IMG/VR virus record: IMGVR_UViG_3300020472_000033
Location: 1 to 54,888 of that record
Reading direction: 5' to 3' (one strand)
Length of the DNA stretch: 54,888 nucleotides
Source: a virus
The notes under the pieces: model-generated
Databases searched by the model: none
The model's input: the letters and a program-made list of their open reading frames with translations, nothing else
What the model was told of the DNA's origin: nothing
In this document: piece by piece, positions 6,242 through 19,567 of the stretch
Layout of the letters: every line of letters starts with the position of its first letter
Numbering within the stretch: the first letter of the stretch is position 1
Position numbers and translations under genes: made by a program

Positions 6242-6319
6242 TGTAGGGTGGCGGAATTGGTAGACGCATCAGGCTGTTTCCCTGTAATATTGTAGGTTCA
6301 AGTCCTACCCCTACAGCCA
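6242..6319 (+). tRNA. tRNA-Asn (anticodon GTT), CCA encoded
   Basis: Acceptor stem TGTAGGG (6242-6248) pairs with CCCTACA (6309-6315), then G73 and an encoded CCA. D stem GCG/CGC with an 11-nt loop; anticodon stem 6269-6273/6281-6285 has four pairs plus a T-T mismatch at 27-43; loop CTGTTTC gives anticodon GTT at 6276-6278; variable region 6 nt; T stem GTAGG/CCTAC with TTCAAGT loop. G73 and GUU are the known AsnRS identity elements in E. coli, and U1-A72 also matches. Odd points: T37 and C38 instead of the usual purine 37, and a D arm that resembles tRNA-Leu. A T7 run follows. Confidence 0.82.
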
Positions 6320-15119: not shown

Positions 15120-15706
15120 ACACTATTACAATTCAAGACAATTTCATAGATGATAAACATTATGAAGAATTAACAAGCCTTCACATAGAATATAATAAGG
15201 TACATTGGATAGGAGCTCTGGCAAAACCTCAAAATGCACTACATAAACTAGTCTTGAAAACAAGGCCTGATATACCATCTGCCACAGACAAGTTGAAACC
15301 ACCATATTCATATACAGGTGCCACAGCTTGGTATAATATTCGTCCAATACATCCACAGTGGCATAATGATATTGATTCATATTGTACTAAGAACGGAATT
15401 ACGTATACACCACAAGACAAGCCACCATATACTTACCTATACTATGTAAAAGAACCAAGTAAAGGGGGTGAATTACAACTTGAAACAGGAGACTTGATAA
15501 TACCCAAGCTGAATAGACTTGTTTATTTTCCATGCTCTCTTATTCATAGGGTACGTATGTATACTGGAAACAGGGTATCAATAGGTATTATATGGTGGTT
15601 TGATATACCTTCCGAGCTATATGGAGTGCTAGGGGAGAAAGAAACCAAAGTACTTGATAGATTATGGGAAATAGAGGATGAGCGGAAGATCATTAAAAAG
15701 GGTTAA
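15116..15706 (+). CDS. 2-oxoglutarate/Fe(II)-dependent oxygenase
   Basis: 196 residues. The iron facial triad is H83-x-D85 (QWHNDID) and H144 (LIHRVRMYTGNRVS), with R153 nine residues later to bind 2-oxoglutarate; the double-stranded beta-helix is visible as GGELQLETGDLIIPKLNRLVYFP. Such enzymes hydroxylate proteins, nucleic acids or small molecules; marine phages carry many. It ends the operon that begins at 12981. The substrate is not evident. Confidence 0.84.
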   Translation: MNTITIQDNFIDDKHYEELTSLHIEYNKVHWIGALAKPQNALHKLVLKTRPDIPSATDKLKPPYSYTGATAWYNIRPIHPQWHNDIDSYCTKNGITYTPQDKPPYTYLYYVKEPSKGGELQLETGDLIIPKLNRLVYFPCSLIHRVRMYTGNRVSIGIIWWFDIPSELYGVLGEKETKVLDRLWEIEDERKIIKKG

Positions 15707-15993
15707 AAAAACATATAGTTGTTGTGTTTAAAGTCCTCAGCCTCACAGGAAAATCTCAGGACATACAGGGAAATTATTAGGGGTACAGGTACGCATAGCA
15801 CCCCATAGCAGTCCATATACACACACTTGATACCATAGCACACCACTTGATACAGAGAGAGGCCCTGTGCCATGGCTACAGTACAGTGCCAGGGAGGGAT
15901 ACCGAAATCAATTTAGTGGCTTGAGTATCCTCATGCACTACAGTGTTATAAGCCAGCACACGGCCGGCCACTATCACGAATCACTCAGCTGAT
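15707..15993 (-). ncRNA. Candidate minus-strand transcript, no gene seen
   Basis: A perfect consensus promoter (16000-16028, minus) would start RNA near 15993 that runs leftwards to a T7 tract at about 15708-15713. I see no convincing frame or ribosome site on either strand. The region holds paired stretches (for example CCCTG/CAGGG around 15870-15896) and a 20-nt tandem unit with ACTTGATAC at 15825 and 15845 and three CATAGCA copies. It could also be an antisense RNA towards the end of the 2OG-oxygenase gene. Confidence 0.45.
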
Positions 15994-16061: not shown

Positions 16062-16090
16062 TTGACATACCCTTGACTCTGTGGTACTAT
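16062..16090 (+). promoter_or_regulatory. sigma70 promoter for small RNA 1
   Basis: TTGACA (16062-16067), 17 nt, TACTAT (16085-16090). It lies back-to-back with the minus-strand promoter at 16000-16028, 33 nt apart. The start would be near 16097, with no coding frame before the terminator at 16217-16313. Confidence 0.82.
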
Positions 16091-16096
16091 GTGTAT

Positions 16097-16313
16097 GCTG
16101 AGAGATTAAAGAACAGCTAAGAGAACTACTGGAGTCATATGACTAGGGTTGAGAGCCACTGCAAGTTCTCTCTTTGTATGTGGGCACTTGATATCTTGAA
16201 AAAGCCTTTATGTGGTGGGGGGTATAGGGGGGTGTCCAAATCCTTTAGTTAGGATCCACCAATCTATAAATGCAATAAGTATCCAGAGAAAAATACCCCT
16301 ACCCCCCTTTTTT
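16097..16313 (+). ncRNA. Candidate structured small RNA 1 (about 217 nt)
   Basis: Bounded by the promoter at 16062-16090 and a GC-rich terminator. It has no open frame with a ribosome site. Pairing visible: AGAGAACT (16120-16127) with AGTTCTCT (16164-16171), enclosing the palindrome AGTCATATGACT (16133-16144); then the terminator stem with an inner hairpin ATCCT/AGGAT. No known family is recognised. It may be a regulatory RNA made early in infection, inferred from the host-type promoter. Confidence 0.62.
16217..16313 (+). terminator. Strong intrinsic terminator with long apical part
   Basis: GGGGGGTATAGGGG (16217-16230) pairs with CCCCTACCCCCC (16296-16307) with a 2-nt bulge, giving 12 pairs, followed by six T bases (16308-16313). 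The long loop contains a nested hairpin, ATCCT/AGGAT, closed by GGTG/CACC. Confidence 0.7.
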
Positions 16314-16619: not shown

Positions 16620-16648
16620 TTGACAAATCCTTTTAGTTTTGGTATTAT
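16620..16648 (+). promoter_or_regulatory. sigma70 promoter for large RNA 2
   Basis: TTGACA (16620-16625), 17 nt, TATTAT (16643-16648). The start would fall near 16655, followed by a GTGAGAGAGAGAAAAATATGATG leader-like tract in which the ATGATGTAG frame ends at once. Confidence 0.82.
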
Positions 16649-16654
16649 TAGTTA

Positions 16655-17093
16655 TAGTCAGAAACAACGTGAGAGAGAGAAAAATATGATGTAGCAATAA
16701 CGTAAATGCCGTAAACGCCGTGAGTAGGTTCTCCCAATATGAATTGAAAACTATGTGGCATCGGAGGGGGATATTGGGTGTTCCTAGAGAATCATATTTC
16801 TGGTCTAGGGGCAAGGCAAGAGGGACGCAGCTCGCCACTGTACCGACTTTCGGAGTTCGGAGTAATACAGACCAACAAGGCCCAGAATGATTTTGTGAGT
16901 ATCATCTAGAAAACTCTCCACTGTATGCTCTAGTGAAGCTGAGATACTAACCCTGTCGCTGTCGGATGACCCATTAAGGAATACGGAGCGATTCAGAGTT
17001 GGGTGCCGAGAGAGAGAAGCATTAAGGTTGGTTGGACTCCAGTAAAGTTCCCAAATGTGGGTGGAGTTGGTAGTGTTGCTTCTCTCTCTTTTT
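16655..17093 (+). ncRNA. Candidate large structured RNA 2 (about 440 nt)
   Basis: Bounded by a strong promoter and a 12-bp terminator, with no credible gene between and a visibly higher G+C content than its surroundings. Pairing seen by eye: CCCAATAT (16733-16740) with ATATTGGG; CCTAGA with TCTAGG around 16783-16808; CTGTA/TACAG enclosing a CCGACT-UUCGG-AGUUCGG type hairpin near 16839-16870; ACTCC/GGAGT with CCCA/TGGG near 17036-17066. I could not match it to tmRNA, RNase P RNA, 6S RNA or group I or II introns. Large phage RNAs such as GOLLD and ROOL show that such molecules exist, but identity is open. Confidence 0.66.
17009..17093 (+). terminator. Intrinsic terminator of RNA 2
   Basis: AGAGAGAGAAGC (17009-17020) pairs perfectly with GCTTCTCTCTCT (17078-17089), and T bases continue to 17093. 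The 57-nt interior folds into a further hairpin (ACTCC/GGAGT, CCCA/TGGG). Confidence 0.75.
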
Positions 17094-17117
17094 ATATATA
17101 ATATATAGGGGAATGTT

Positions 17118-17360
17118 ATGGTTACGGATGAGGAAATGAAAGAGTTTGGTAGAGAACTAGCAAAGCTCTGCTTCAAAAATGACCATCTAGATAATGAAAA
17201 AGCTATGATGATGGGTGCTATGCTCATGAAAACAGCTATGGAATTGTATGTTAGAATGCTGAAAGATGAAGATATTAATAATCTTTTGGATGTTGTAGCG
17301 GAAAGTCTTCCTAATATACGGTATATAACGGAAACTGAAATTGATAGAACGATTCATTAA
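17118..17360 (+). CDS. Small helical protein, unknown function
   Basis: 80 residues, mostly helical: DEEMKEFGRELAKLCFKN, then NEKAMMMGAMLMKTAMELYV and a C-terminal NNLLDVVAESL. The ATG at 17118 has GGGGAA eight bases upstream. The AUG-rich helical character is like small phage regulatory or chaperone proteins. The stop overlaps the next in-frame ATG region (TAATGG). Unrecognised. Confidence 0.62.
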   Translation: MVTDEEMKEFGRELAKLCFKNDHLDNEKAMMMGAMLMKTAMELYVRMLKDEDINNLLDVVAESLPNIRYITETEIDRTIH

Positions 17361-17371
17361 TGGAGAATGTT

Positions 17372-17641
17372 ATGAAAGTAGGTAGTGAAGTAGAGTATAA
17401 TACTGGCGATCGGCGAAAATCGGGCGAAGTGCTGGGTGTATACTCTGATAATTTTGATGAAGTGAAGGTAGATAGTGGTAAGTATCTTGGCCAAGAGGTT
17501 AAAGATATTCTGGTCTATTGGTCTAAGAAAACGAAATCTTGGAGGCCTGTAAAGGAAAAGGATATGGGTTCTATATTCTTTGAGATTAAGGGAAAGGGAA
17601 AAGATCCGATTGATTACGTATTGATTGAAGAATTGGTATGA
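17372..17641 (+). CDS. Small beta-rich protein, unknown function
   Basis: 89 residues from ATG 17372, chosen for GGAG at 17361-17364; an ATG at 17360 overlaps the previous stop. The sequence VGSEVEYNTGDRRKSGEVLGVYSDN, then EVKVDSGKYLGQEVKDILVYW looks like a KOW/Tudor-type barrel. Its stop overlaps the next ATG (ATGA). Function unknown. Confidence 0.6.
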   Translation: MKVGSEVEYNTGDRRKSGEVLGVYSDNFDEVKVDSGKYLGQEVKDILVYWSKKTKSWRPVKEKDMGSIFFEIKGKGKDPIDYVLIEELV

Positions 17642-18121: not shown

Positions 18122-19567
18122 ATGCTAGAAGAAAAAAGCAACTACATGGGCCATGATGGTTTCATATGGTTTGTAGGTGTTGTTGAAGATAGAAATGATC
18201 CAGAACGTGTAGGCAGAGTACGTGTAAGATGTTTAGGCCATCATACGGATGACTTAAATGAGATTGCAACGGATGACCTTCCTTGGGCTCACGTTATGCA
18301 TCCTGTTACTGATCCATCAATGCATGGATTAGGACATACCCCTTCCTTTCTTGTTGAAGGTTCTTGGGTTATTGGTTTCTTTAGGGATGCTGATGAAAAA
18401 CAACAACCAGTTATTTTAGGTTCTTTGCCTGGCTCTCCAGCATTTTCTGCTGATTGCAAGAAAGGGTTTAATGATCCTAGAAGTCCATTCTCCACACAAG
18501 ATGAATATACAGGAAAACCAGTATACGGGCCTTATCCAGTAGGGGCTGTAATTGATGATGAAGGTAATGAAAACACTATGTCTTCTGGTCATGTTACAGG
18601 TGAGCCTGATACGAATAGATTAGCAAGAGGTCAATCTTCCGAAACCCATAACTCTTTAGTAAATCGTAGAAAAGATAAAGTCACTAAGATTCCTATTGCG
18701 ACAAAACCCCATCTTCCTACAGTAGAATTAAATTCCACAGCTGAAACTCGTTCCACTTGGGATGAACTGGATCCAAAATCCATATTATCTACTGCTGACC
18801 CATATGTTTCAGCACAATATCCTTTTAACCACGTTCATGAAAGTGAATCTGGTCATATTAAGGAAATAGATGACACGCCTGGCGGAGAAAGATTATTTAC
18901 GCAACATAGTTCTGGAACTTTTGAGGAAATTCACCCAAAAGGTGACAAGATGGTTAAAGTTGTAGGTGATAACTATGAGATTATTGCTGGCTTCTCTAAT
19001 GTTCTTATTAAAGGTGATGTTAATATGACTGTAGAAGGTGATATGAGACAGTTGGTGAAAGGTGATTATGTTTTGGAGGTAGAAAAAGACTATACACTTA
19101 AAGTTGGTCAGAACCAAAGAACCAAAATCGGATATAAAGATGCTGGAGGGAACAGGGAAGAAGAAATTAAAGGAAATATTTCTACTAATGTCAATAGTGA
19201 CCACTTTACACGTATAGGTGGTTGGAAGAAGTGTACAGTTGGTACGCATAATGTTTTGATTGTTAATGATTATAGCAAAATGTCTATAGGTAAGAAGCTC
19301 TCAATAGCATCTTTAGGTAGTGATGTTAATATAACTGCAAAAAACAATATGACAATTACAACACTGTCTGGTATTTCCTCGTTCAAGTCTGGAAATAAAC
19401 TTAATATTAAATCAGCTGACCAAATGGTTATTCATACTGAAGCAACTGGATTAAACATTACTTCTGCTGGAGCAGTATTAGAAACATTTGGTGCTGGTCA
19501 AGATACAAATATTACAGGTACTTGGACTTGTGATACTACAGGTAATATAGAACTTAATAATAGTTAG
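18122..19567 (+). CDS. 5: Baseplate central spike, gp5-like, without lysozyme domain
   Basis: 481 residues. An N-terminal OB-fold (FVGVVEDRNDPERVGRVRVR, then PWAHVMHP and GSWVIGFFRDADEKQQPVILGSLPG) occupies about residues 14-115. A linker follows, and from about 240 to the end an acid/Gly strand repeat (IKGDVNMTVEGDMRQLVKGDY) forms the triangular beta-helix of spikes. T4 gp5 (575 residues) has a lysozyme domain between these parts; no lysozyme motif is present here, as in marine T4-like phages. The protein would sit below the hub and puncture the outer membrane. Confidence 0.86.
   Translation: MLEEKSNYMGHDGFIWFVGVVEDRNDPERVGRVRVRCLGHHTDDLNEIATDDLPWAHVMHPVTDPSMHGLGHTPSFLVEGSWVIGFFRDADEKQQPVILGSLPGSPAFSADCKKGFNDPRSPFSTQDEYTGKPVYGPYPVGAVIDDEGNENTMSSGHVTGEPDTNRLARGQSSETHNSLVNRRKDKVTKIPIATKPHLPTVELNSTAETRSTWDELDPKSILSTADPYVSAQYPFNHVHESESGHIKEIDDTPGGERLFTQHSSGTFEEIHPKGDKMVKVVGDNYEIIAGFSNVLIKGDVNMTVEGDMRQLVKGDYVLEVEKDYTLKVGQNQRTKIGYKDAGGNREEEIKGNISTNVNSDHFTRIGGWKKCTVGTHNVLIVNDYSKMSIGKKLSIASLGSDVNITAKNNMTITTLSGISSFKSGNKLNIKSADQMVIHTEATGLNITSAGAVLETFGAGQDTNITGTWTCDTTGNIELNNS

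Follow-up and report, generated by a model that had tools for sequence, protein, structure and literature searches.

The plus-strand interval 16655–17093 of the DNA analyzed here encodes, with near certainty, an RNA of a family that had not been catalogued before and that occurs in diverse uncultured phages. This DNA (the window, 54,888 bases) is part of the genome of a T4-like marine phage and encodes baseplate and tail proteins; judged by sequence comparison, about 36 further viral-contig sequences share the 5′ core of the RNA. The predicted architecture runs from a promoter through a leader of ~30 nt with Shine–Dalgarno-like purines and a start–stop AUG into a pseudoknot of three helices (P1/P3/P2). 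In the subclass to which the window belongs, this core is followed by a second pseudoknot (P4/P5) and then by a separable terminator module (module X). The comparison shows an RNA under selection for two pseudoknots, a terminator module, and a start–stop signal kept at near-constant distance. Large structured RNA families that are both new and strongly covarying are rare, and this one carries a built-in, testable clue to its action: across divergent phages, a start and a stop codon keep a near-constant distance from a pseudoknot. Parking of ribosomes at this place, if it occurs, would be a new way to stabilize RNA or to capture ribosomes, and the modular relatives provide ready sets of variants for probing.

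Predicted architecture and covariation

The RNA locus lies ~1 kb upstream of the gene for the baseplate hub (18122–19567), in a part of the window that is variable. Among phage records, the baseplate wedge protein of the window is closest to that of Methylophilales phage Melnitz (52%), followed by those of pelagiphages Mosig and HTVC008M (48%). The original prediction of a structured RNA at this site had proposed a TTGACA-17-TATTAT promoter, which we located with 11 of 12 matching positions, and a raised G+C content, which amounts to 0.44–0.50 in 200-base windows across 16700–17099 compared with 0.336 in the whole window. Two complementary pairs named in that prediction, CCCAATAT/ATATTGGG (16733–16740 with 16771–16778) and CCTAGA/TCTAGG (16783–16788 with 16804–16809), are present and form parts of the conserved, covarying helices P2 and P4. 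The UUCG-type hairpin also exists (16838–16870), but it lies where the relatives diverge most. The long stem of the proposed terminator is there as well, but it is no simple hairpin: it encloses ~60 nt and closes a conserved module. The predicted features are as follows, each with its basis where one applies.

16620–16648, plus strand: sigma70-type promoter TTGACA-17-TATTAT with TG ahead of the −10 element
16671–16679, plus strand: GAGAGAGAG, purine-rich Shine–Dalgarno-like leader (sequence)
16686–16694, plus strand: start–stop mini-ORF AUG AUG UAG, stop 15 nt ahead of P1 (cluster counts)
16706–16710, plus strand: P1 5′ strand AUGCC, partner GGCAU at 16757–16761 (alignment covariation)
16711–16728, plus strand: conserved joining stretch GUAAACGCCGUGAGUAGG (alignments A5 and A7)
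16729–16731, plus strand: P3 5′ strand UUC, partner GAA at 16741–16743
16733–16739, plus strand: P2 5′ strand inside the P3 loop, first pseudoknot, partner 16772–16778
16744–16756, plus strand: conserved joining stretch UUGAAARCUAUG (alignments A5 and A7)
16757–16761, plus strand: P1 3′ strand (covariation)
16772–16778, plus strand: P2 3′ strand (covariation)
16781–16788, plus strand: P4 5′ strand, partner 16804–16811
16798–16803, plus strand: P5 5′ strand UUCUGG inside the P4 loop, second pseudoknot, partner CCAGAA at 16882–16887
16815–16836, plus strand: hairpin bearing near-invariant GNGGGACGCAGCYC (alignment A7)
16838–16870, plus strand: peripheral variable hairpin with UUCG (in the window; different in relatives)
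16882–16887, plus strand: P5 3′ strand, within AAGGCCCAGAAU (model-free search and covariation)
16898–16948, plus strand: 3′ domain AGUAUC/GAUACU with inner CACU/AGUG (sequence; four close relatives have aligned counterparts)
17007–17093, plus strand: module X (covariation, folding energy)
17008–17019/17079–17089, plus strand: module X closing stem (covariation)
17020–17031, plus strand: module X invariant CAUUAAGGUUGG (alignment)
17036–17040/17063–17067, plus strand: module X inner stem (covariation)
17089–17093, plus strand: module X U-run, terminator (sequence)

The core was examined in alignment A5, which comprises 35 sequences (L275 and L291, cut by contig ends, were left out). It supports an H-type pseudoknot in which P1 has 4 pairs, P2 has 7, and P3, whose loop contains P2a, has 3. 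Among 34 distinct aligned sequences, 95.1% of 452 cells hold standard pairs, compared with 74.3% after shuffling and at most 52.1% with slid partners (covariation score 0.521 vs 0.192). Double changes occur at 11 of 14 pairs, including all seven pairs of P2, a helix that is 100% paired in the 11-sequence subclass. The unpaired stretches UAAAC..GYGAGUARG and UUGAAARCUAUG are conserved too, part of the conserved letters of the core having been fixed by the search pattern. The window fits the family definition formed by these stretches and P1/P3/P2 with 107 bits (E 3.7e-30) under model R1, whose alignment includes the window itself.

For the window's own subclass (alignment A7, 11 sequences), a search without prior model recovers P1, P2, an 8-pair P4, and P5. 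P4 has zero mismatches in the 11 sequences and double changes in 7 of its pairs. The subclass structure as a whole is 98.7% paired (81.1% when shuffled), with double changes in 18 of 29 pairs and a covariation score of 0.589 vs 0.232.

A third alignment (A6) holds 18 sequences of module X; exact duplicates were omitted, as were L216 and L249, in which the 3′ side is interrupted. All 9 pairs of the closing stem show double changes and the 5 pairs of the inner stem are 98.9% paired, so that the module overall reaches 88.1% paired vs 67.2% shuffled with double changes in 13 of 14 pairs. By itself module X is also more stable than its shuffles (z −4.04, matched by 0 of 200). Since the closing stem continues into the U-run in several members, this stem would also serve as the terminator. 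Copies of module X without a core occur in L141 and, behind a tRNA, in L149 and L152, while L212 and L250 carry promoter-like sequence just ahead of it; the module is thus separable. In four members fetched by the core pattern alone (L266, L274, L281, and L289), module X lies ~300 nt downstream. Just upstream of module X in the window, a second CATTAAGG (16972–16979) sits in a short hairpin that ends in AGAGUUGGG and resembles a miniature X core.

The covariation that the homologues were expected to show is thus present, and strong, in three separate alignments. It speaks against the notion that the locus is merely the remnant of an early mRNA leader, complementary by chance and without a function as RNA. 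That notion can draw on the resemblance of the leader to one ahead of a Melnitz gene and on the folding energy of the whole RNA (446 nt), which is at shuffle level (z 0.05; 48 of 100 shuffles fold equally well) in a program that ignores pseudoknots. We regard it as refuted by the covariation and assign it a vanishingly small probability. Coding capacity was rejected as an explanation of the core: with ORFs counted from 50 aa upward, 35 of 37 loci have no sense ORF across it and 20 of 37 have none on either strand, so that antisense ORFs span it in some loci and not in others. In the window, two antisense ORFs of 79 and 140 aa overlap the RNA.

Relatives, known RNA families, and downstream genes

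Using blastn against 50,697 phage records, the window RNA gave only chance or low-complexity matches, and the core was likewise not matched when five representatives taken from other contigs served as queries. An exact 26-mer from the hairpin region found no match, anchors on small neighboring proteins led to no relatives, and gp5 and gp6 anchors delivered many loci without any full-length homologue. Scanning the gp5 alignment identified L141, where segment 2560–2657 matches the 3′ end of the RNA (the first module X matches), and L152, where the module X counterpart comes straight after a tRNA. The CATTAAGGTTGG core that these two have in common was used as a pattern on viral contigs and retrieved 49 stretches, with ~19 distinct sequences of module X. 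Lacking the closing stem, L217, L219, L221, L222, L223, L225, L232, L233, L234, L238, L239, L241, and L246 were taken by eye as chance matches. By way of nhmmer, L256, L243, L244, L228, and L220 were recognized as nearly full-length relatives (E 1e-32 to 6e-23); L212 is more distant but matches over most of the RNA (E 5e-10), and the match in L218 is split in two pieces. A second pattern derived from the 5′ core yielded 47 stretches, 40 of them distinct when the window is counted, and 37 were kept as real after L268, L279, and L293 had been dropped by eye as chance core matches.

A model of the core finds exactly one match in each of the 31 pattern-retrieved records, as it must by construction. 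In a further 50 records the threshold of E 0.05 is passed by 7, strongly so by 6: the already known L243 and L256, the X-bearing contigs L216, L249, and L250, and one contig of a metagenome-assembled genome, which has the coordinates of the L290 record and is probably the same contig. The model found nothing convincing in Melnitz, Mosig, HTVC008M, T4, S-BM3, AG-345-P14, and P-HM2 (best 0.048). No match emerged under strict filters from 249 genomes of one bacterial phylum, a weakly informative result.

No known RNA was matched either, as the original prediction had anticipated. At gathering score, Rfam searches of the window and the relatives returned tRNAs only; none of the Rfam 15 families, which include introns, ribozymes, riboswitches, GOLLD, ROOL, OLE, HEARO, tmRNA, and RNase P, was found in the region or its relatives, and lax thresholds added only weak unrelated matches. 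ARAGORN and Rfam gave the RNA no tmRNA or tRNA identity, their sole match in the window being a tRNA-Asn at 6242. Since neither the region nor the relatives match Rfam, the RNA is not a known intron. We call the family new because no described family matches it and because neither a description of it nor its start–stop-plus-pseudoknot layout was found in a limited open-access literature search. With homologues, strongly covarying pairs, and no Rfam family in hand, the idea of a new large phage RNA has held up; the corrections to the original prediction concern the modular architecture, the use of the core as a 5′ leader of small genes in other phages, and the conserved start–stop mini-ORF, which had been overlooked. 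The absence of Rfam matches, known ribozymes included, also weighs on the possibility that the RNA is a ribozyme which cleaves or processes itself and thereby trims early transcripts of the phage. Small ribozymes are commonly found in such a setting, a phage pseudoknot whose unpaired nucleotides are invariant, but we see no invariant cleavage site and the start–stop signal would go unexplained, which makes this possibility quite improbable.

The most similar known RNAs in general character are GOLLD and ROOL, which one report describes as large, pseudoknotted, phage-encoded RNAs of unknown function, some near tRNA or tRNA-like genes (PMC12286853). The present family is likewise large, pseudoknotted, and phage-encoded, and some of its relatives lie near tRNA or tRNA-like genes, as in that account (PMC12286853). 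Unlike GOLLD and ROOL, the window RNA is shorter and has a 5′ start–stop ORF, and the core doubles as a gene leader; the GOLLD and ROOL covariance models do not match the region or its relatives even at a lax threshold. A trans-acting structural or scaffold RNA of this kind, which perhaps assembles with itself or with a phage or host protein, is nevertheless a rival, which we consider unlikely. Two pseudoknots with near-invariant unpaired stretches would suit it, as would the stand-alone gene and terminator of the window, an arrangement that the ornate phage RNAs share (PMC12286853). The mini-ORF would then be incidental or only an RNase shield. This rival does not explain the start–stop spacing, and cores that lead into genes (L260, L265, L277, L290, L298, and others) are odd for a purely trans-acting RNA. 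T4 itself has two stable RNAs of small size, rnaC and rnaD, whose genes are annotated next to tRNAs. Neither family model matches the T4 genome and blastn similarity to rnaC and rnaD is at chance level only; on these comparisons the two are unrelated to the window RNA.

In some members (L260, L265, L267, L277, L278, L283, L287, L290, L296, and L298) the core runs into a gene 100–270 nt further on, with no T-run or promoter between. In others, as in the window, a terminator or further RNA modules come first. The downstream proteins are unrelated (DUF932, DUF7178, a winged helix, a ligase-like fragment, and several without match) and thus do not form the conserved class of regulated genes expected behind a riboswitch, although DUF932 recurs behind cores of two different subclasses (L265 and L259). 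DUF932-type genes were noted behind the cores of L265, L259, L262, L271, and L282, of which L265 and L259 were covered by the Pfam run. A riboswitch or protein-binding leader, in which a ligand-bound pseudoknot controls the gene behind it and gene-less copies are decoys or relics, would account for compact covarying pseudoknots, conserved loops, and the position ahead of genes, DUF932 being among these in two subclasses. The unrelated nature of the downstream genes and the conserved translation signal upstream of the fold argue against such a leader, which we deem improbable.

The start–stop mini-ORF and a possible ribosome cap

Among the 35 members with at least 130 nt of upstream sequence, 30 have a promoter with at least 9 of 12 matches located 65–125 nt upstream of the core (random places: 15.7%). 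This position implies that the core lies near the 5′ end of the transcript. Within the leader, nearly every member has an AUG with an in-frame stop close behind it, in the manner of a start–stop minigene. Members were grouped at 85% identity, which left 26 clusters with enough upstream sequence; these share ancestry, and the counts are therefore not independent events. In 24 of the 26, an AUG starts within the 19 positions from −44 to −26 of the GAGTA motif, compared with 41% of 21-nt control windows on the same strands. Every such AUG meets an in-frame stop within 7 codons including the AUG (0–6 further codons), which is true for 29% of control AUGs. Upstream of the mini-ORF AUG, complementarity to the anti-Shine–Dalgarno sequence averages 4.33 nt (24 clusters) vs 3.07 nt for AUGs of other short ORFs. 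Stop spacing was measured in a slightly smaller set of 23 clusters: the stop, UGA in some and UAG in others, precedes P1 by exactly 15 nt in 16 of them and by 4–13 nt in the remaining 7. Relative to the AUG, P1 starts at +14 to +28 (median +19). The covariance-model matches L216/L312 and L314, which are without the scanned GAGTA motif, have AUG AUU UGA and AUG GCA UGA at the same place. L283 and L296, which by eye are the two most G+C-rich members and look clearly richer than the others, have no mini-ORF. The UGA or UAG before P1 could also belong to an RNA motif.

The least unlikely mechanism, which we put forward tentatively and at somewhat below an even chance, is docking of a ribosome at the start–stop ORF against the pseudoknot. 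An initiating ribosome covers ~15–17 nt past the first base of the start codon, and with its leading edge at about +15 to +17, P1 (median +19) would fall just beyond it. The transcript would be an early, stable phage RNA on which a ribosome initiates, terminates at once, and remains parked, its front edge touching the entrance to the pseudoknot. Parked ribosome and knot would jointly cap the 5′ end against ribonucleases, module X would close the 3′ end, and the early stop would prevent elongating ribosomes from unfolding the knot. In gene-bearing copies this cap would give the mRNA protection in cis. The window has no gene ahead of the terminator, so that the RNA itself would be the product; it may favor the phage by retaining ribosomes, initiator tRNA, or release factors, or by serving as a scaffold. 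The family may accordingly represent a new class of phage RNA, a ribosome-capped transcript that phages use both as an early-mRNA leader and, once further modules are added, as an independent RNA acting on the ribosomes of the host, a reading that we again consider possible rather than probable.

The lambda bar minigenes offer a precedent, as phage RNAs with a one- or two-codon ORF that is able to occupy ribosomes. The present family resembles these and other start–stop ORFs in having a one- or two-codon ORF in a phage RNA, and a strongly expressed gene-less copy could sequester ribosomes or release factors in a similar manner. The bar RNAs are not known to have a conserved pseudoknot at a fixed distance, unlike the near-fixed spacing found here. 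The put RNAs of HK022, structured RNAs of early phage transcripts with two stem–loops, are promoter-proximal, as is the core in 30 of 35 members. An antitermination RNA of the put type, which acts in cis on RNA polymerase and allows it to pass early terminators including the one at 17089, would fit this position and the small genes that are often found downstream. But put RNAs consist of two simple stem–loops and no ORF, whereas this family has a pseudoknot and a mini-ORF that antitermination does not explain, and we think it improbable that the RNA works in this way.

Neighboring elements and other RNA modules

Several further elements were noted around the RNA and in related contigs. A small RNA module (module Y) at 16114–16175 of the window, with a promoter at 16062–16090, has the layout GAGAC-UUCUGGA-stem-UAGG-stem-CACUGCUAG-GUCUC. 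Its relatives occur in L084, L141, and L192 (two copies) and are inserted behind the core in L261, L270, and L273. Another recurring RNA, module Z (GUGUC.CGAAUGGUCUU.CGUAUA.UGCUGAA..GCUAGGUGGAC.GACAC), often ends in a terminator and was seen at ~490–555 in L084, ~200–266 in L091, ~2110–2170 in L189, and behind the core in L276. RNAs with acceptor and T arms resembling tRNA lie at 2662–2756 in L141, at 2166–2344 in L189, and behind the core in L270. Their 5′ side carries UCUGG..GAGU, and two of them contain a long insert, features reminiscent of tmRNA; ARAGORN makes no call in L141, and its only call in L189 is a tRNA-His.

In the window, a T4-type late-promoter-like AATCTATAAATGCAATAAGTAT (16261–16282) is placed within the loop of a G-rich/C-rich terminator (16217–16313), so that late transcripts would lack the 5′ arm of this terminator; L276 has a similar layout. 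On the minus strand, a perfect TTGACA-17-TATAAT promoter (16028–16000) leads into ~290 nt of gene-less, G+C-rich sequence (15700–15993), which is perhaps another RNA. The far end of this stretch (15691–15780) has relatives in many of the related contigs. The interval 15116–15706 matches a PHROG labeled DNA endonuclease V; this label may be wrong, and the product looks to us like a 2OG-Fe(II) oxygenase. In L195, long degenerate runs of GGATCAAGTC-type repeats (1–290 and 1245–1720) flank a gene. Finally, 17360–17641 of the window encodes a small protein family that keeps its place upstream of gp5 in at least 10 relatives.
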